Shown here: piece after piece, positions 648-16,561 of the stretch
How positions within the stretch are numbered: the stretch's first letter is position 1
Layout of the letters: each line of letters starts with the position of its first letter
Origin: a virus
Reading direction: 5' to 3' (one strand)
Virus record (IMG/VR): IMGVR_UViG_3300018083_000092
Location: 1-31,375 of that record
DNA length: 31,375 nt
Made by a program: the position numbers and the translations under genes
Notes under the pieces: model-generated
What the model was told of the DNA's origin: nothing
The model's input: only the letters and a program-made list of their open reading frames with translations
Database searches by the model: none

Positions 648-840
648 AATAGATCATGCCGACTACTTAACCTACCACGCTAGCCTCATTATATAATAAT
701 ACCTAACCCCATTTTACCAGAGGGGAACTTAGTCCCTAACTCCGCTATTCTCAGGGGGTATTACACGTTTATACTGTTTAGCAGGTAACAGTACAAACTC
801 AATAATAGGATTTAACACAATTTCATCGGCATGATCTATT
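648..840 (-). ncRNA. Candidate structured RNA closed by a 15-bp perfect stem
   Basis: Positions 648-662 (AATAGATCATGCCGA) and 826-840 are exact reverse complements separated by 163 nt that hold no convincing open frame. Inside, 772-778 and 787-793 form a 7-bp hairpin (TACTGTT/AACAGTA) with an 8-nt loop, and AGGG/CCCT near 721-735 can form another stem. The next pair inside the closing stem (663 with 825) would be G-U on the minus strand, as expected if it is read with the flanking minus-strand genes. It lies between the genes at 852-1049 and 553-621. It could be a stable phage RNA, a processed intercistronic RNA or a regulatory domain. Confidence 0.5.
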
Positions 841-1105: not shown

Positions 1106-1261
1106 CTATTCTTTCACCAATTGTGTAGCCTCTTCAAAAGACATTCCCTGTCTCAGAAGTTTGTTAATAGCCTCATCAGAAGAAATAATTCCATTCTTCA
1201 TATTCTTGATGATCTTCTGAATCACAACAGCATCAGAAGAACCAAAAGGCATTCCATCCAT
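1106..1261 (-). CDS. Hypothetical small protein (51 aa)
   Basis: A 51-codon frame begins at ATG 1261 with GGAG 7 nt upstream and ends at TAG 1106-1108. The product starts MDGMPFGSSDAVVIQKIIKN, continues with an I-I-S-S-D-E-A-I-N-K-L-L segment, and ends EEATQLVKE. It looks like two or three short amphipathic helices, reminiscent of small helical modules that bind partners, but I cannot name a family. The two S-D-(E/A)-(A/V)-turn helices may be an internal repeat. It lies 57 nt upstream of the 65-residue gene. Confidence 0.65.
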   Translation of the reverse strand: MDGMPFGSSDAVVIQKIIKNMKNGIISSDEAINKLLRQGMSFEEATQLVKE

Positions 1262-1276
1262 GACTTTTCTCCATAT

Positions 1277-1305
1277 CCTATATCCTTACTGTATAAGGAC
1301 TTAGG
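1277..1305 (-). promoter_or_regulatory. Leader hairpin of the 51-aa gene
   Basis: TCCTTA (1283-1288) pairs with TAAGGA (1294-1299) around a 5-nt loop. It is extended by a G-U pair on the minus strand and, past one mismatch, by CCTA/TAGG (1277-1280 with 1302-1305). It occupies the place of the ATTA-loop hairpins but has a different loop. Confidence 0.4.
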
Positions 1306-1319
1306 ACTTTCCCCGTAAT

Positions 1320-2375
1320 AGCTTAATCCAACTATCACCTTTAACCCCATATTAACCCCTTACTTTAGCCTCTCAATTATATAGATAATTAAATCCATAT
1401 AAGAAAGACTTAGTAAGGAGTCAATAATGGAGGGTAGTTTACCATAAACGGCAAACTATAAGTATTTTGGGCATCCTCAGACTTCCCCATTTTCCCACTA
1501 TTTAATGGGAATAACATATATTCTTCCCTATAAGAATAAGAAAGATATAAGGAGGAAGGAGAGTTAGAGTTTCTAGTCGGGGTTTTACCATCGCTCCAGG
1601 CAGCGACCAGACTAGCAAATCCATCTCACTTTACCAAACCCCTTCATTCCAAGGGTTTTTATTCAAAGCGAGCATTAAAATCCCCAGTGAGAATGGAGAA
1701 ATTAATAATGTAATGGATACAGATTCTATCTGTGATATTCCTTTGGGGAGGAAAATCTCACTCAAAATAGAAAATGAAAACATCATTATTCCTTGAGATT
1801 CTTTCGTTTTTGACTCTAAGAGGGAAACAAATAAATTGCTATATTTAAGAATCCCCGTTTTCGCTGTTTATTTAGCAGAGAAATATAAATATGAGGAGAA
1901 TTAACCCCTCAAATACTTACTTTTCAACACGCCAATAATATTCCATATAGAATTCCCGCAAGAGAACAGAGAAGGGAACAGACTTCGGCATGGTAATTCT
2001 CCGTGAGTACATTGGAGTAATCCCCAATGAATATGGAAAGTGCGGGTCTAGGGAGTTAAACCCCAAATTCCTAGTATTATACATAGGAATTATCTCGGAT
2101 GACCCACAAATATAGTTCCCAAAAGCGAACGGGATTTAATCCATAGTGGACTGTACAATCCCTTAAGCTATATTACCCATAGACTTCCAGGAACATTTCC
2201 AATGAATGTTTTTGTGTGGGGTGGATTACTGGATGCCACCCGCCATACACTTAAATGGAAACATATAGAATCTCCCATTACTCATCTCATTGATTGAGAG
2301 AGTAAAATTGTTTCAGCAGGAAAAAGATATAGAGAATGTTAATCCTCAATATATCCTCTCTTCTGCTGACTAAAC
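1320..2375 (-). ncRNA. About 1 kb of highly structured non-coding sequence
   Basis: No credible gene is found on either strand, but inverted repeats run almost end to end. Examples are 1435-1443/1450-1458 (9 bp), 1573-1578/1610-1615 enclosing 1591-1595/1602-1606, 1636-1641/1653-1658, 1719-1723/1729-1733, 1892-1898/1905-1911, 1941-1948/2031-2038, 2010-2015/2024-2029, 2066-2073/2084-2091 and 2103-2108/2215-2220. The last encloses 2109-2115/2168-2174, 2131-2136/2157-2162 and 2192-2197/2205-2210. Further stems are 2219-2224/2236-2241, 2278-2289/2295-2305 and 2314-2331/2350-2368. Several stems (1435-1458, 1892-1911, 2320-2360) become continuous only with minus-strand G-U pairs; a few ends favour plus. 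Very large ornate phage RNAs such as GOLLD and ROOL are known, but I cannot assign it to either. Confidence 0.5.
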
Positions 2376-2630
2376 GTGTGGATGGAATACGCTATTAGTT
2401 CTTAGCGACAATTCCACCCCGACAATGGAAAACTTCGCACAATATCCGATAGTGGATTCTGTGGGAAATACCATCAAAGTACCGCAAGTATATACATCAG
2501 ACTTCCAAGTGATTTGTGCTTGCCCGGTTGTATCGGATTCGTGAACAGAGCAAATAGCCTGTTCCATGCTTCCATAAATCCCCATTGCGACCGGAAACCC
2601 ATCCGGTGCAATCATTGACACAACGAACAT
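2370..2630 (-). CDS. Hypothetical protein (86 aa)
   Basis: The start at 2630 is supported by a strong GGGAGGT site 6 nt upstream, preceded by an ATTA-loop hairpin. The product starts MFVVSMIAPDGFPVAMGIYG and has an extended, beta-rich look with three cysteines (C27, C49, C64). I recognise no family or catalytic motif. The stop codon lies inside the outer stem (2310-2313/2372-2375) of the structured region that follows, so translation of this gene could affect folding of that RNA's 5' end. Confidence 0.65.
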   Translation of the reverse strand: MFVVSMIAPDGFPVAMGIYGSMEQAICSVHESDTTGQAQITWKSDVYTCGTLMVFPTESTIGYCAKFSIVGVELSLRTNSVFHPHV

Positions 2631-2637
2631 CTGACTA

Positions 2638-2653
2638 CCTCCCTAATGGGGGG
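2638..2653 (-). promoter_or_regulatory. ATTA-loop hairpin
   Basis: CCC-ATTA-GGG at 2641-2650 on the minus strand is flanked by a C-A mismatch and two more C-G pairs. Its 3' arm is part of the AGGGAGGT ribosome site of the 86-aa gene, so pairing would hide that site. Confidence 0.5.
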
Positions 2654-2658
2654 TGGAA

Positions 2659-2706
2659 GGGCTAAAGCCCTAGGAATTCCTTGGAACTATACAATCCCAA
2701 GGAATT
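2659..2706 (-). promoter_or_regulatory. Intercistronic double hairpin
   Basis: Positions 2675-2706 fold on the minus strand into an almost unbroken hairpin. Ten Watson-Crick pairs (AATTCCTTGG/CCAAGGAATT) are followed by G-U, A-U, U-G and U-A pairs. On the plus strand the wobble positions are A-C mismatches. The first arm includes the TAA stop of the upstream gene. A second stem, GGGC-TTTA-GCCC, lies at 2659-2670. No U-tract follows, so it is more likely a processing or stability element than a terminator. Confidence 0.55.
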
Positions 2707-2926
2707 AATTAATCTCTTTAATCCAATCAGGGTAAATGGAAAACGGTTCTACATCTTCCCCGTCGAATGTAACAATTACCCCGATTACCTCTCTCACTCC
2801 AACACTTCTGGCAATATTGCAAGTAATCACATCATCCACGGTTGCAGGAATATCTTTCACGATATCCGAACCAGGGATAGAGATGGTGAGTTTATCACCA
2901 ATACGGATGGAGGGAGAGAATGGCAT
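2705..2926 (-). CDS. Hypothetical protein (73 aa; alternative start gives 80 aa)
   Basis: The product (MPFSPSIRIGDKLTISIPGS, then DIVKDIPATVDDV and on) reads as a small beta-barrel-like protein with alternating hydrophobic residues. It ends with DWIKEIN. An ATG at 2947 would add seven residues, but it overlaps the ATTA-loop hairpin and has its ribosome site only two or three nt away. The ATG at 2926 follows GAAGAGA at a normal distance, so I prefer it. No family is recognised. The stop codon is buried in the intercistronic hairpin at 2675-2706. Confidence 0.6.
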   Translation of the reverse strand: MPFSPSIRIGDKLTISIPGSDIVKDIPATVDDVITCNIARSVGVREVIGVIVTFDGEDVEPFSIYPDWIKEIN

Positions 2927-2946
2927 ATAAGTCTCTTCTGCTGACA

Positions 2947-2962
2947 TTTCCCTAATGGGAAA
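2947..2962 (-). promoter_or_regulatory. ATTA-loop hairpin
   Basis: A perfect 6-bp version (TTTCCC-ATTA-GGGAAA on the minus strand) lies about 20 nt before the preferred start at 2926. A 14-nt motif (GTCAGCAGAAGAGA) follows it and recurs at 2357-2370. Confidence 0.6.
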
Positions 2963-2975
2963 CGAGTGTTTATTT

Positions 2976-3029
2976 CGAACCCACCAGGTTAAAACTAGGC
3001 GGGTCGATTCACAGTACTCACCAGGTTCG
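2976..3029 (-). promoter_or_regulatory. Leader with two competing stems
   Basis: CGAACC (2976-2981) can pair with GGTTCG (3024-3029), or ACCCACC (2979-2985) can pair with GGCGGGT (2998-3004); the latter is continuous only with a minus-strand G-U pair. The two overlap and exclude each other. A 9-bp direct repeat CACCAGGTT occurs at 2982-2990 and 3019-3027. Lying between two terminators and a gene start, this may be the 5' leader of the 2926 transcript. Confidence 0.35.
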
Positions 3030-3066
3030 CGGTCATTATCCTAGTATGTCATCCAGGTAGATTGCG

Positions 3067-3096
3067 AAAAAAAAGGACAAATGGATATTTTTGTCC
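3067..3096 (-). terminator. Intrinsic terminator (second of a pair)
   Basis: On the minus strand GGACAAA and TTTGTCC form a 7-bp stem (3075-3081/3090-3096) followed by eight Us (3074-3067). It backs up the terminator at 3111-3133. Confidence 0.75.
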
Positions 3097-3110
3097 AATT
3101 TCAGGGCATG

Positions 3111-3133
3111 AAAAAACCCGGCAGGTGCCGGGT
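3111..3133 (-). terminator. Intrinsic terminator of the 438-aa gene
   Basis: The minus strand reads CCCGGC-ACCT-GCCGGG (3132-3117) followed by six Us (3116-3111), a textbook rho-independent terminator 18 nt after the stop codon. Confidence 0.9.
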
Positions 3134-3150
3134 AAGGTAGTCGGGGATTT

Positions 3151-4467
3151 TTACCAGTTAGCTTTAGGGTCTAACGGCGCGATAACCGTTTCATCCGGAA
3201 AACCGTAATAGTCGAGTTCCGGGGATTTACCCGTAAAGATTCTCCGCTCTCCGCTTTCCCATTCTCGCAGGGATTCTTGAGCGCGTGCAATCCGATAGGC
3301 TTCCCTGCCGGACCATTCCGCCCATTCACGGAGTGTATCTAACTGCGCCCGTTCCGTGACAATCGCCTGAATCCCTTCCGGGTAATTCTGACGGGCGGAA
3401 TCGACGATAGGATACTCTCCATCGGAAATAGATTGTTCTCCGAGGGTATCGGGGGATTGAATGTACTTACAATCCCTTTCCACGATTGCGAGCGCGTATC
3501 GGTTCGCTTTGTCCGTGTCCCCGTCCATATTCGCCCGTACCATCGAAACGGCAAGGGTAAACCAGAAGGAATGAACACCATTCGTTAAGGAGAGCTCGGC
3601 ATCGGTGCAATTGAAGGGTTCAGACTGGAGAATGCCGATAATCTCGGATTGTAAAGGCATCCGCTTGGATTGCGGGAGTTTGGAGTATTCGACGGTCGCA
3701 CCATGCACTTTGTTATCTTCCCAGCGCTCGATTCCGAACCGACGCATAGCGTGTATACGCTTAGCAGTAGTGGCGGAAATTGGTCCCATGCCAATCGCAT
3801 TCGGTTCCGCGCCTTCCAGAGGTTGTTGGATGGTGCGCACGAATGAAGGGAGACTAGAGACGGGAAAGGCAGAATTGAGAGTAAAGTAGTCGGCGCAGAT
3901 TGAAAACCATCCCGTTCCCTTATCCTCCCTGATTCCCATTTCATCGGGATTGCTCGCGGCTTCCCATTGGATACCCCATTCACGGCAGTAGTTACGGAAT
4001 TGGCGGAAAATCTCCCCGTCCGTAGCTTCACCTAGTTGCCGATACCCGGCAGGAATGGGCGCGTCCGGTCCCTTGCGCGGACCTACTCCGCGCTGCGAGT
4101 AGTAATCGGGAAGCGCGGGAGTTAATTTAACCATCAACAGAGTTTGGCGACCGCGCGTTACCCCAGCGTATAGGTTCCCTTTAGTGGGATCGATTGCGCT
4201 GGGACATTCGGCAATATACTGGTAGCGCGCTGTAGAGGTGTTCTCATGGGTTTTACGGTGGGCGCGTAGTTCTTCCCCCGTCATTCGCCGATAGGTTATC
4301 CCACCTAATTCGATGGAATCGGGAAGAATGGCAAGAGTGCCGACTACGCGCCCGAAGGGGAGAGAAGGACGGGAATATTTAGAACGTGCTTTGATGCCGC
4401 GCGCGTCAACGCTGCGCAGCTCGTGAAGTGTAGTCGGTGACGTGTTGTTAGGAATGCGCTTCGACAT
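3151..4467 (-). CDS. Hypothetical protein (438 aa), GC-rich gene
   Basis: This is the largest minus-strand gene. Its 438-residue product has a basic, low-complexity N-terminus (SKRIPNNTSPTTLHELRS), a folded middle part and a charged C-terminus with R-E-W segments. It has no signal peptide, membrane segment or enzyme signature that I recognise. The gene is clearly GC-richer than the plus-strand genes, with many GCG and CGC codons, which suggests a separate origin or different selection. The start at 4467 has AGGGG upstream and an ATTA-loop hairpin at 4478-4493. Two tandem terminators follow the stop and the neighbour's terminator lies upstream, so it is probably transcribed on its own or by read-through. 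Confidence 0.8.
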   Translation of the reverse strand: MSKRIPNNTSPTTLHELRSVDARGIKARSKYSRPSLPFGRVVGTLAILPDSIELGGITYRRMTGEELRAHRKTHENTSTARYQYIAECPSAIDPTKGNLYAGVTRGRQTLLMVKLTPALPDYYSQRGVGPRKGPDAPIPAGYRQLGEATDGEIFRQFRNYCREWGIQWEAASNPDEMGIREDKGTGWFSICADYFTLNSAFPVSSLPSFVRTIQQPLEGAEPNAIGMGPISATTAKRIHAMRRFGIERWEDNKVHGATVEYSKLPQSKRMPLQSEIIGILQSEPFNCTDAELSLTNGVHSFWFTLAVSMVRANMDGDTDKANRYALAIVERDCKYIQSPDTLGEQSISDGEYPIVDSARQNYPEGIQAIVTERAQLDTLREWAEWSGREAYRIARAQESLREWESGERRIFTGKSPELDYYGFPDETVIAPLDPKANW

Positions 4468-4563: not shown

Positions 4564-4911
4564 TTACGCGGCAACCGTTTCACCCGGTGCAGCGACGGAA
4601 GGCGCGGCAGAGAGCTGCGCGGGTTCGGACATGAATGCGGAAAGGACATTGCGGACGCCCGCAACGTTTTCGAATTTCTGTTGAATGCGACGGGTGAACC
4701 CGTCTTCCGTGGTCAGCGACACTGACGCCTGAATGGTCGCACCGGGTTTATTCGTGGCTTCGCGGATCGCTTCCGTGGTGAGCCCTTCGGGCACGACACC
4801 CGAAATGCGAACGCGCTCCGTGTAGGTTTGCCCGTCCGTGCCGAGCACATCGCGGGAAATGGAGGTTTTCGCTTCCTTCGTGAACGCTCCGAGCATGGGA
4901 GTTGCGGACAT
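4564..4911 (-). CDS. Hypothetical protein (115 aa), GC-rich gene
   Basis: The ATG at 4911 (MSATPMLGAFTKEAKTSISR) follows GGAAGGAAG and an ATTA-loop hairpin, and is preferred over upstream extensions into the structured leader. The product is alternately polar and hydrophobic, with T-Y-T-E-R-V-R-I and A-S-V-S-L-T-T-E-D-G-F-T-R-R-I segments typical of beta-sheet. It ends in an alanine/proline-rich tail (APSVAAPGETVAA). I do not recognise a family. A long leader and a strong own terminator suggest an independently expressed, possibly abundant small protein. Its GC content matches the 438-aa gene, not the plus-strand genes. Confidence 0.75.
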   Translation of the reverse strand: MSATPMLGAFTKEAKTSISRDVLGTDGQTYTERVRISGVVPEGLTTEAIREATNKPGATIQASVSLTTEDGFTRRIQQKFENVAGVRNVLSAFMSEPAQLSAAPSVAAPGETVAA

Positions 4912-4945: not shown

Positions 4946-5155
4946 GAGTTACCCCTCCGGAGTGTCGGCGGGACGCGGAAGTGCGCCCGCTCGTCCGGGG
5001 GGGTGTCGCCCGATTGGTCCGCCCTTCCGGGCACCGCTCGGCACGAGTGTGGCAGGAACGGCATAGCGTTCCGTCACTGGTAAGTAGGGGGAGGGGGAGC
5101 CAAGGTAGTCCCTGGATGTTATACTTTGTATAACCTGGTCGCGTCGCCGCGGGGG
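4946..5155 (-). promoter_or_regulatory. GC-rich structured leader of the 115-aa gene
   Basis: No gene is supported here. On the minus strand 5021-5032 forms GCCC-GGAA-GGGC, a stem with a GNRA-type loop, extended by GGT/ACC (5016-5018 with 5033-5035). GGAACG/CGTTCC (5055-5060 with 5067-5072) forms a 6-bp hairpin. The composition changes abruptly from GC-rich to AT-rich near 5155. Confidence 0.4.
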
Positions 5156-8244: not shown

Positions 8245-8725
8245 AATAACTATTGTTAATAAGTTTACTGTTATTAAAGATACTCGTGAACAAAACGGGT
8301 GGAACTTTAGTAAAGAAGGTAATTGTGATGGGACCGTGGTAGAAAAGTTAGACACGGGTGATTATTCTTTGAAGGGTTTAGAAGATAAATTTACGATTGA
8401 GCGGAAGGGTTGTGTAGCTGAATTCGCAACTAATTTATTTCAAGAGAGATTTTATAGAGAATTAGATAGACTTAATAAATTTGAACATCCATATTTAATA
8501 CTAGAATTCCCTTTTGATTTGATGGAGATCTATCCAAAAAATTCAAGCATTCCTATGTGTAAATGGGAGTTTGTTAAAATTCGTGGTAATATGCTTATTA
8601 AGAGTTATCATGAAATGAGATTATCTTATCCTAATATCAGAGTGGATTTTGTAGGATCAGGAGGAAAATTTTATTCCTTCTCATTGTTTAAAAGAATAAC
8701 GGAATTATATGGCAGAAAAGTTTAA
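8231..8725 (+). CDS. ERCC4/XPF-type nuclease
   Basis: The sequence shows the XPF-family nuclease signatures in order: K-D-T-R-E (D17, R19, E20), L-D-T-G-D-Y (41-45) and I-E-R-K (E57, R58, K59), followed by an aromatic-rich F-Y-R-E-L-D-R-L segment. The acidic residue usually 3-4 positions after ERK is here an E five positions on, a small deviation. There is no helix-hairpin-helix domain, as in other small phage versions. Such enzymes cut branched DNA, so trimming replication or packaging intermediates is a reasonable role. The gene overlaps both its neighbours (HNH and large terminase). Confidence 0.75.
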   Translation: MASNKITIVNKFTVIKDTREQNGWNFSKEGNCDGTVVEKLDTGDYSLKGLEDKFTIERKGCVAEFATNLFQERFYRELDRLNKFEHPYLILEFPFDLMEIYPKNSSIPMCKWEFVKIRGNMLIKSYHEMRLSYPNIRVDFVGSGGKFYSFSLFKRITELYGRKV

Positions 8726-10907
8726 AGCTACCCCTAATATTGATTTTATTTTTGAACTGGCAAATAATGCCTGGGCTCTTTCGGAAGAACAAATAAAAAG
8801 TGTTAGACCCGGAAGTGATGGAGCATTAGATGTAATTAAACTATTAGATATACCTTTACCTGCTGATAGACCTCTAGTACCTAAAACAAAGTTTGAATTT
8901 GACAATCCTCATATACACCTTCTAAAGATAATGTCAGATCCGTTGTTTTTTCCATTTACCTGCAAGACATTATTTTGCCGACCAGATGGCGCTGGTCCAC
9001 TGCAAATCCTCCCATTCCAACAAATCACTCTACAGGAATTGTGGTGGCGTCAATTCCCAATGTTGATTTATACCCGAGGTGGTAGTAAATCTTTTATATT
9101 AGCCTTATACGCTTTATTACGCGCTACCTTTACTCCTGGTTCTAAGATAGTTATTACTGGATCGTCTTTCCGGCAAGCTAAAAACGTTTTTGAGTACATC
9201 GAACGTATTTGGTACAAATCTCCAGTATTTAGATCTTTAGTGAAAAGTAGTCCTAGTGGTCGTCGATCTGGTCCTATTCGTGGTATTGATAAGGTTGAAT
9301 TTATTGTGGGAGACTCCATAATTACTGGTATCCCTATTGGTGATGGTGAAAAAGTTAGAGGTTTGCGTGCTAACTATATCTTGACGGACGAATTCGCATC
9401 TATTAATGAACTAATTTACTCAGTTGTTATTCAGGGTTTCGCCGCTGTTACCGCCGATCCCATAGGAAACGTTAGAGATTATGCTCGAATGGAATTATTA
9501 AAGCGTCTAGGATATTGGACGGTAGATATGGAAGAAGATGAATTAAAAAAGGTTAGAGGTAACCAAAGTGTTCTAGCAGGAACTGCTTCATATGCCTTCA
9601 ACCATTTTTATAAATATTACCAGGACTATAAAACGTTTATTGGTACTCGTGGTGATGAAGAAAAAATTAAACGAGTATTTAATGGAGAAATTCCTACTGG
9701 ATTTAAATGGGATAGTTATTCTATTATCCGATTACCATATACTCAAATCCCACATGGGTTTATGGATGATCAAATTATTGCCCGTGCTAAACGTATTACT
9801 AATACTTCCGAATTTATGCGTGAATATGAAGCTTCTTTCGTTAAGGATTCTGATGGATTTTTTCGTCGTTCTTTAATTGAGAGTTGTGTAGTAGGACATA
9901 AAGATCGAGATCCAATACAATTTAAATCTTGTGGTATTGTAAATTTTGCTGCTTTATTAAAGGGAAGCAAAGATAAAAAATATATATATGGAATTGATCC
10001 TGCATCTGAAAATGATAAATTTGCTTTAGTAATTGTTGAGTTATGGGAAGAACATAGACGAGTGGTATATTCATGGACGACCAGTAAGTCTAAACAAAAG
10101 GATCAGCTTCGTAAAAAATTAGTTAGTGATGGTAACTTTTATAAATATGCTGTGAGAAAAATTAGATCTTTATTTGCTGATTTTCCACCAGAAAGAATTC
10201 TAATTGATAAGGGTGGTGGTGGCGTAGCTTTACGCGAAGCGTTTGGTGATACTGATAAATTGGATGGTTCAGATTTACCCGTTTATGAAGTAATTGATCC
10301 AGATCCTAAAAACTATAAAGATACCGATTCTAAAGAAGGTTTACATTTATTAGAAATTGTCGACTTTACTAGTGAATGGTTAATGGAAGCTAATGAAGGT
10401 ATGAAGAAAGATTTAGAAGATAAAGTCCTTTTATTCCCATTATTTGATAGTCTCCAATTAGGTATGGCTGGTGTAGCTGATGAAATGAGTGGTCGTAAAT
10501 CTAAAAATGATGAAGGTGAAATAGTTTATACTACACAGGATACTCTAGAACAAAATATGTTAGAGATTGAAAAACTTAAAGATGAGTTGGCAACTATTGT
10601 GGTTAGTCAAACTCCTACGGGTAAGCGTAGATGGGATACTCCAGATCATAAAATGCCTGGTTCTAAAGTTGGTCGATTACGTAAGGATAGATATTCCGCA
10701 CTTTTATTAGCAAATATGGGTGCGCGAGTTTATCAACGTGGTGAAGATGAGTTTGAACATGATGGATGTGTTAAGGGAGGGTTTGTTTCCGAAATTTCCA
10801 CTCCATTAAAAATGAGAGAATCATCTGGTAAGCAATTATATAAAGGTCCGGCTTGGTTTAATAAAAAAGTCGGGTCTGGAATATATGGATCTTTAGTACA
10901 AAGATAG
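8709..10907 (+). CDS. terL: Terminase large subunit
   Basis: This 732-residue packaging motor has an ATPase half with a variant Walker A (RGGSKS, residues 123-128), ITGSS (149-153), a Walker B (YILTDEF, D227/E228) and a likely coupling motif AGTAS (290-294). A nuclease half follows with an RNase H-like first strand (YGIDPAS, D430), a second acidic strand (ILIDKGG, D500) and a late D-R-Y-S-A-L segment. It cuts concatemeric DNA and pumps it into the prohead through the portal. The length is above the usual 450-650 residues because of extra sequence in the nuclease half. It overlaps the ERCC4 gene by 17 nt and is the last gene before a new promoter-like motif. Confidence 0.9.
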   Translation: MAEKFKATPNIDFIFELANNAWALSEEQIKSVRPGSDGALDVIKLLDIPLPADRPLVPKTKFEFDNPHIHLLKIMSDPLFFPFTCKTLFCRPDGAGPLQILPFQQITLQELWWRQFPMLIYTRGGSKSFILALYALLRATFTPGSKIVITGSSFRQAKNVFEYIERIWYKSPVFRSLVKSSPSGRRSGPIRGIDKVEFIVGDSIITGIPIGDGEKVRGLRANYILTDEFASINELIYSVVIQGFAAVTADPIGNVRDYARMELLKRLGYWTVDMEEDELKKVRGNQSVLAGTASYAFNHFYKYYQDYKTFIGTRGDEEKIKRVFNGEIPTGFKWDSYSIIRLPYTQIPHGFMDDQIIARAKRITNTSEFMREYEASFVKDSDGFFRRSLIESCVVGHKDRDPIQFKSCGIVNFAALLKGSKDKKYIYGIDPASENDKFALVIVELWEEHRRVVYSWTTSKSKQKDQLRKKLVSDGNFYKYAVRKIRSLFADFPPERILIDKGGGGVALREAFGDTDKLDGSDLPVYEVIDPDPKNYKDTDSKEGLHLLEIVDFTSEWLMEANEGMKKDLEDKVLLFPLFDSLQLGMAGVADEMSGRKSKNDEGEIVYTTQDTLEQNMLEIEKLKDELATIVVSQTPTGKRRWDTPDHKMPGSKVGRLRKDRYSALLLANMGARVYQRGEDEFEHDGCVKGGFVSEISTPLKMRESSGKQLYKGPAWFNKKVGSGIYGSLVQR

Positions 10908-15532: not shown

Positions 15533-16561
15533 ATGTCTCGCTTTAGTAAGAATCCTGGACCTCGGATGACCGAGTTGCTTCAACGTGCTGGCTCTAACGA
15601 ATTAACCATTCGTGCAGAAGCTACCCATCAACTCGCCAAAGCTTTAGAACTTCCTTTGCGTCAAGGCGTTCTTAAGGGCGACATAGTTGGTGATATTTAT
15701 GAAAAAGAACCTCTTCAACCTGGTGTTGCTGCAGAATATCCATTAGATCTTCTAACCCCTGGTACTGAAGATGAATACGTAGCATATACGATCCCAGCTC
15801 AAGGTCGTATCCCTGAAATGCACGTACAAGGCGATTATGTAATGGTTCCAACCTTCGAAATTGGTTCCAGTATTGACTTCGCTACTAAGTATGCTCGTGA
15901 TGCTCGATGGAATGTCGTAGGTCGTGCAATGCAAGTCCTAGAAGGATCAGTTGTTCGTAAGCACAATACTGATGCTTGGAGATGTTTAATTTCCGCTGGT
16001 TATAACCGATTCCTAAACGTCTATGACGATAAGGTACAACCCGGTTTCTTCAGTAAGAGATTAGTCGAATTAATGAAGAACGTAATGAGACGACAAGCTG
16101 GTGGTAACTCCACTTCAGTAAATCGTGGTCGCCTAGATCGTTTATATGTCAGTCCAGAAGCTTTAGGTGATATTCGTACTTGGGACGTAACACAAGTTGA
16201 CCCAATTACTCGTCGAGAATTGTTTGTAGACGATGACCTAGATCGTATGAAGATTTTCGGTGTAGAATTACGATCAATCGATGAATTAGGTGTTGGACAA
16301 GAATTTGAATCCTATTGGGAAACCAAATTAAGTGCATCACTCCCAACTTATTCTCTATCTAGTGTTTCATATACTAAGTTAGAAATCATGGTTGGTCTAG
16401 ATCTCTCCCACGATGGAGTCTTTATGAACCCAGTTCGTCAAGAATTCCAAGTCCAAGAAGATCCAACCTTCGCTCGTCAACGAAGAGTTAGCTTCTGGGG
16501 TTATGCTGAAGGTGGTTGGACAGTTCTAGATGGACGTAGAGTATTAATTGGTTCTATCTAA
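15533..16561 (+). CDS. Major capsid protein
   Basis: The 342-residue product sits at the expected place after scaffold and decoration genes and looks like an HK97-fold capsid subunit. It has an N-terminal helical part (MTELLQRAGS to about 55), a central part with DYVMVPTFEIGSSIDFATKY, a long helix near 165-190 and a P-domain-like region with RLYVSPEALGDIRTWD, followed by HDGVFMNPVRQEFQVQED near the C-terminus. GGAG lies upstream of the ATG and a strong terminator follows. Codons ending in C (TTC, ATC, GAC) are more frequent than in neighbouring genes, as expected for a very highly expressed product. No separate N-terminal scaffold domain is present, in line with the upstream fusion. Confidence 0.85.
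   Translation: MSRFSKNPGPRMTELLQRAGSNELTIRAEATHQLAKALELPLRQGVLKGDIVGDIYEKEPLQPGVAAEYPLDLLTPGTEDEYVAYTIPAQGRIPEMHVQGDYVMVPTFEIGSSIDFATKYARDARWNVVGRAMQVLEGSVVRKHNTDAWRCLISAGYNRFLNVYDDKVQPGFFSKRLVELMKNVMRRQAGGNSTSVNRGRLDRLYVSPEALGDIRTWDVTQVDPITRRELFVDDDLDRMKIFGVELRSIDELGVGQEFESYWETKLSASLPTYSLSSVSYTKLEIMVGLDLSHDGVFMNPVRQEFQVQEDPTFARQRRVSFWGYAEGGWTVLDGRRVLIGSI

Follow-up and report, generated by a model that had tools for sequence, protein, structure and literature searches.

The locus examined here raises the question of what is encoded by a stretch of about 1.1 kb that contains no credible gene, is rich in hairpins and lies within a cluster of small viral genes. The window analysed was the whole virus record IMGVR_UViG_3300018083_000092 (31,375 bases), which is probably a fragment. 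The right 26 kb holds a structural gene cluster on the plus strand, and the terminase and capsid genes found there (Table 1) bear out the phage origin that an earlier note on this DNA had claimed. The sole annotated relative found for the major head protein was that of Bacillus phage G, a distant one (24%). Alignment-guided scans of IMG/VR placed the virus in a large uncultured clade in which terminases are at most about 46% and capsids at most 58% identical, and detected no relative nearer than these values. Contigs of the clade in IMG/VR reach 206 kb, and four capsid relatives sit in MAGs of unrelated bacteria. Judged by these sequence comparisons, the virus is a member of a widespread uncultured clade of large phages.

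Table 1. Features of the window discussed in the text; positions are those of the 31,375-base record.
Feature	Positions	Strand	Remarks
Terminase large subunit	8709-10907	+	PHROG match
Major head protein	15533-16561	+	
Upstream flanking gene	2370-2630	-	86 aa; no known family
Downstream flanking gene	1106-1261	-	51 aa; no family above threshold
Second, smaller structured non-coding stretch	648-840	-	Perfect 15-bp closing stem 826-840/648-662; fold of 620-851 z -4.85
Candidate hairpin-array RNA (whole structured non-coding stretch)	1264-2369	-	z -9.5; no coding signal
5′ structured block	1862-2369	-	MFE -165.1, z -6.0; begins directly past the stop codon of the upstream gene
Linker, weakly structured	1755-1861	-	z -0.7; pairing entropy higher than elsewhere in the array
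3′ structured block	1264-1754	-	MFE -178.3, z -9.7; ends directly ahead of the RBS of the downstream gene
First hairpin (7 + 11 + 6 bp)	2313-2369	-	Pair probabilities 0.97, 0.89, 0.93
Longest hairpin (6 + 14 + 8 + 10 bp; 38 bp, interrupted)	1345-1432	-	Pair probabilities 0.76-0.99
Hairpin, continuous via a minus-strand G-U pair	1435-1458	-	Pair probability 0.98
Hairpin, continuous via a minus-strand G-U pair	1892-1911	-	Pair probability 0.95
AUUA-loop hairpin inside the array	2010-2029	-	CAUUGGGG-AUUA-CUCCAAUG; same loop as the gene-leader hairpins
Last hairpin (6 + 8 bp)	1275-1307	-	Pair probability 0.97; just ahead of the RBS of the downstream gene

The left 5 kb, which contains the array, is transcribed in the opposite direction and consists of small genes that could be assigned to no known family, although the gene at 852-1049 gave weak PHROG matches. 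A 96-aa protein encoded at 155-445 on the minus strand has a start resembling a signal peptide with a lipobox (LISASLTSCA) and a weak spanin-like PHROG match (E 0.011). For the 115-aa protein encoded at 4564-4911, a single-sequence AlphaFold model (pLDDT 68) gave no meaningful PDB match and was set aside. Between the divergent transcription units lies an operator-like palindrome (GTTATAC-TTT-GTATAAC, 5117-5136).

Near 5.2 kb the GC content drops from about 55% to 33%, which raised the suspicion that the left 5 kb, and the array with it, came from another genome through a false assembly join and thus belonged to another element. The AUUA-loop leader hairpins described below are likewise restricted to the left part, and the left proteins had no match in the fetched relatives, in which many of the right-hand proteins did. 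Against such a join, relatives L009 and L010 have the same divergent layout and the same direction of GC change, with higher-GC small minus-strand genes set against the structural block, and L031 and L038 carry minus-strand genes close to the start of that block; the left part was therefore treated as native. Members of the clade share this layout of small minus-strand genes adjoining plus-strand structural genes and differ in the small genes themselves. Small-gene regions of phages turn over rapidly, and the unmatched left proteins accordingly point to a fast-changing gene region. We consider a false join improbable.

The earlier note had described positions 1320-2375 as gene-free. This held, with better limits at 1264-2369: the nearest credible minus-strand open reading frames have their end at 2370 and their start at 1261, and between them the array extends from one gene's stop codon to the RBS and leader of the next. 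Reading frames within these limits (at most 55 aa) had negative codon log-likelihoods and weak period-3 signals, in tests that are weak for frames this short. By comparison, codon log-likelihood was positive for all seven neighbouring genes, whose scores are somewhat flattered because the codon table was trained on them.

Two of these frames nevertheless have the look of genes. Downstream of the AUUA hairpin at 2029-2010 come CGGAG and the ATG of a 24-aa frame (1990-1917, minus strand), and a 51-aa frame with a hydrophobic stretch (1786-1631, minus strand) has AAGGA ahead of ATGATG, its start lying in the unstructured linker. The stretch could accordingly be occupied by very small genes of the cluster, with leaders that form hairpins like the AUUA hairpins of their neighbours. 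Neither codon usage nor periodicity distinguished the inner frames as it did all seven neighbours, to the extent that such lengths allow, and none of the frames matched a family. Very small genes are in our view an unlikely explanation of the array as a whole, although the 51-aa frame, itself without codon signal, may be a small gene.

Folding of both strands against dinucleotide-shuffled controls, as the earlier note had proposed, showed both to be more stable than shuffled sequence and favoured the minus strand. With 200 shuffles, the minus strand of 1264-2369 had a minimum free energy of -371.6 kcal mol-1 (shuffled -280.2 ± 9.6; z -9.5), and the lowest of the shuffles did not fall under -309. 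The corresponding energy of the plus strand was -285.0 kcal mol-1 (shuffled -242.0 ± 9.3; z -4.6). Fewer shuffles or slightly different limits gave z from -8.3 to -13.9 for the minus strand and from -3.3 to -7.7 for the plus strand, and the 200-shuffle values are preferred. On the minus strand, the tile 1201-1600 (z -9.4) was the strongest 400-nt tile of the whole 31-kb window, and the tile 1301-1500 reached z -5.7.

The strand preference was also evident in individual stems. The minus-strand fold contained 55 G-U pairs and the plus-strand fold 22. Three stems had been noted that only the minus strand makes continuous, and indeed A-C mismatches of the plus strand became G-U pairs at 1435-1458, 1892-1911 and 2321-2360, with pair probabilities on the minus and plus strands of 0.98 and 0.87, 0.95 and 0.70, and 0.89 and 0.52, respectively. 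The nested stem 2103-2108/2215-2220 fared otherwise: the complementary sequences are present (CCCACA/TGTGGG), but their pair probability was 0.000 on either strand, and the predicted partner of 2101-2108 was 2041-2048.

Restriction of pairing to a span of at most 100 nt retained -350.0 of the -371.6 kcal mol-1 (z -11.7). Since almost all of the stability is local, the molecule is predicted to be a row of local hairpins. Only 15 probable pairs spanned more than 100 nt, in a fold model of nested secondary structure. The claim of at least fifteen stems was exceeded: 20 hairpins had stems of at least 5 bp, compared with 8.6 ± 2.5 in 200 shuffles (maximum 16). UUAA or AUUA occurred in or next to the loop of 7 of the 20 hairpins and in 1.2 per shuffle, an enrichment that is modest per hairpin (35% vs about 14%) once the larger number of hairpins in the array is allowed for. 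A recurrent GAAGUCU motif was left as possible chance. An identical 14-base minus-strand repeat (GTCAGCAGAAGAGA) occurs at 2945-2932, where the gene 2705-2947 starts, and at 2370-2357, where the array has its 5′ end.

The space between the two flanking genes is taken up exactly by the array. No strong intrinsic terminator was found within it, and clear ones follow the upstream genes 4564-4911 and 3151-4467; the most economical transcription unit is accordingly an operon that starts below about 3065 and extends across the array. A search for promoters identified none, promoter-like sites being at chance level. The array would thus be co-transcribed with the minus-strand small genes, which are probably early genes.

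This setting would also suit hairpins that act only within the message, setting its stability, its processing or the translational insulation of the two flanking genes, with no separate RNA formed. The placement from stop codon to RBS between two genes of the same strand and the lack of a terminator closing the array agree with such a role, as does structure in other intergenic parts, namely the stretch at 648-840 and the minus-strand tiles of 2401-3200 (z about -4). Intercistronic spacers, however, usually need far less than 1.1 kb and some 20 hairpins, and the other spacers of the left gene cluster measure 60-210 nt. A purely intercistronic function is a real possibility, but we regard it as less probable than a non-coding RNA in its own right.

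The array could be assigned to no Rfam family. None matched at the gathering score, and over 1000-2750 the filters were relaxed without any match to GOLLD, ROOL, OLE or HEARO as far as E = 10. Searched directly with the models of ROOL and GOLLD, the region gave nothing (the best GOLLD score, 5.2 bits, lay elsewhere in the window); as no control genome reached the cut-off in these direct searches, it is the search to E = 10 that carries weight. By blastn, only short matches at chance level were obtained in phage and plasmid collections and in 96 related viral records, and the same was true of nhmmer over the fetched loci; three matches that clustered at query positions 30-72 proved on inspection to be short and AT-rich (23-41 nt). 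Scans with the flanking proteins, which work from exact matches of short peptides and would overlook remote homologues, detected no relatives for 2370-2630, 3151-4467 or 4564-4911, and one 43% match for 852-1049. An antisense role was rejected, the longest complementarity of the array to mRNAs of the window being no better than for shuffled sequence.

The proposal of a large phage RNA, of known or new class, therefore stood in part. The phage, the large non-coding stretch and minus-strand folding beyond chance were substantiated, and a long stretch without coding signal that folds beyond shuffled sequence agrees with the general kind of large structured phage non-coding RNAs. Membership in GOLLD or ROOL was not: no Rfam model matched, and a local row of hairpins was predicted in place of a nested multibranch fold. 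The RNA is probably of a kind not yet catalogued, but a single sequence without a homologue is too little to establish a new class.

GOLLD (RF02032) and ROOL (RF03087) are both large structured non-coding RNAs, the former of phages and the latter of phages and prophages, and have been described as compact nested folds (PMC12286853). The fold of GOLLD is nested, with conservation of the 3′ region, and the RNA often lies near tRNA genes, in contrast to the local hairpins of the array and to the window, a probable fragment, in which no tRNA gene was found. ROOL has a complex fold with several pseudoknots and is often near tRNA islands (PMC12286853); its model matched nothing in the region. A close parallel in setting is phage ICP1, in which the most abundant transcript (about 800 nt), non-coding, comes from an ORF-less gap of about 1 kb (PMC7567579). 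Like the array, this gap, in a lytic phage, lies between two same-strand genes and not beside tRNAs. It folds with z -2.6 on the gene strand, compared with about -9.5 for the array, and its expression has been demonstrated, whereas that of the array is predicted; no sequence match between the two was found in the phage collection. Phage K produces abundant lncRNAs, of which lnc001 and lnc002 are likewise long minus-strand non-coding RNAs (about 0.6-1.2 kb) from intergenic gaps (PMC9241854). These two differ in adjoining tRNA genes and had no sequence match to the array in the phage collection.

Other members of the clade offered related observations. Relative G046 (172 kb) has strongly structured large stretches at L125 14409-15648, directly upstream of a tRNA-Met, at L125 17289-18223, which seems to hold at least one small ORF, and at L126 11485-12122. 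None matched an Rfam family, and the first and last, both gene-free, had no convincing sequence similarity to the array. These two hint, short of proof, at a clade that repeatedly carries large structured RNAs while their sequences turn over. Relative G005 (125 kb; L096, L098-L100; L097 19017-19360) carries a tmRNA and about 30 tRNAs.

Hairpins with an AUUA loop were found at six further minus-strand sites (4944-4929, 4493-4478, 2962-2947, 2653-2638, 1078-1063 and 642-627), directly upstream of or overlapping the RBS or start codon of genes of the left cluster. On the minus strand of the left 5 kb, AUUA hairpins with stems of at least 6 bp numbered six, compared with 0.09 per shuffle (maximum 1; 300 shuffles); these six comprise five leaders and the array hairpin 2029-2010, the leader 2653-2638 being excluded by one mismatch. 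Among the six leaders 97% of pairs were kept, and five of six pairs were changed on both sides; because the sites had been collected for forming stems, these figures are descriptive and the shuffle count is the test. A covariance model of the leaders gave no further match in the window below E = 0.16, no comparable set was found in the relatives scanned, and a scan of viral contigs for CCCATTAGGG-type hairpins returned 37 matches, none resembling the left cluster. The leader hairpins are likely to be a translational control element.

An AUUA tetraloop at the RBS recalls the operator hairpin of the MS2 coat protein. The leaders differ in lacking the bulged adenine; moreover, no coat-like protein was found and the virus is a DNA phage. 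An origin of the left part from a single-stranded RNA phage was dropped in view of the intrinsic terminators after its genes and the layout common to relatives. The array also resembles CsrB and RsmZ, in which one non-coding RNA carries local hairpins in a row and can bind many protein copies, but it is much longer and its GGA motifs are mostly paired and outside loops. A CsrB-like sponge was rejected on this ground (2 of 30 GGA motifs clearly exposed; mean unpaired probability 0.18 vs 0.34 overall).

Taken on balance, positions 1264-2369 on the minus strand are best explained, with middling confidence, as a lineage-specific structured non-coding phage RNA of about 1.1 kb that would serve as a protein-binding scaffold or decoy. 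The absence of coding signal, the strand preference, the local hairpin architecture and the genomic setting were established here; transcription, release and a protein-binding role we infer. The RNA would be transcribed within the small-gene operon as two blocks, each a succession of local hairpins, with a flexible linker between them, and would be either released or kept in the message. Its many short exposed hairpins would present many protein-binding sites per molecule, which is why a multivalent scaffold or decoy was favoured over a compact nested fold. The loop enrichment that would point to a protein partner was counted against this explanation, being modest per hairpin. A more specific proposal, which we hold to be unlikely, is that the array is a decoy titrating a phage translational regulator that binds hairpins with AUUA- or UUAA-type loops at the RBSs of the left cluster. 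If true, this would be a CsrA/CsrB-like circuit built on an unrelated motif.

Phages repeatedly turn out to encode large structured RNAs, and to our knowledge hardly any of these has been assigned a function. Compared with the published ICP1 gap, the array departs much further from shuffled controls, with a simple beads-on-a-string design in a widespread clade of uncultured large phages. The AUUA leader hairpins of the same gene cluster provide a concrete binding hypothesis, which is usually missing for such RNAs.
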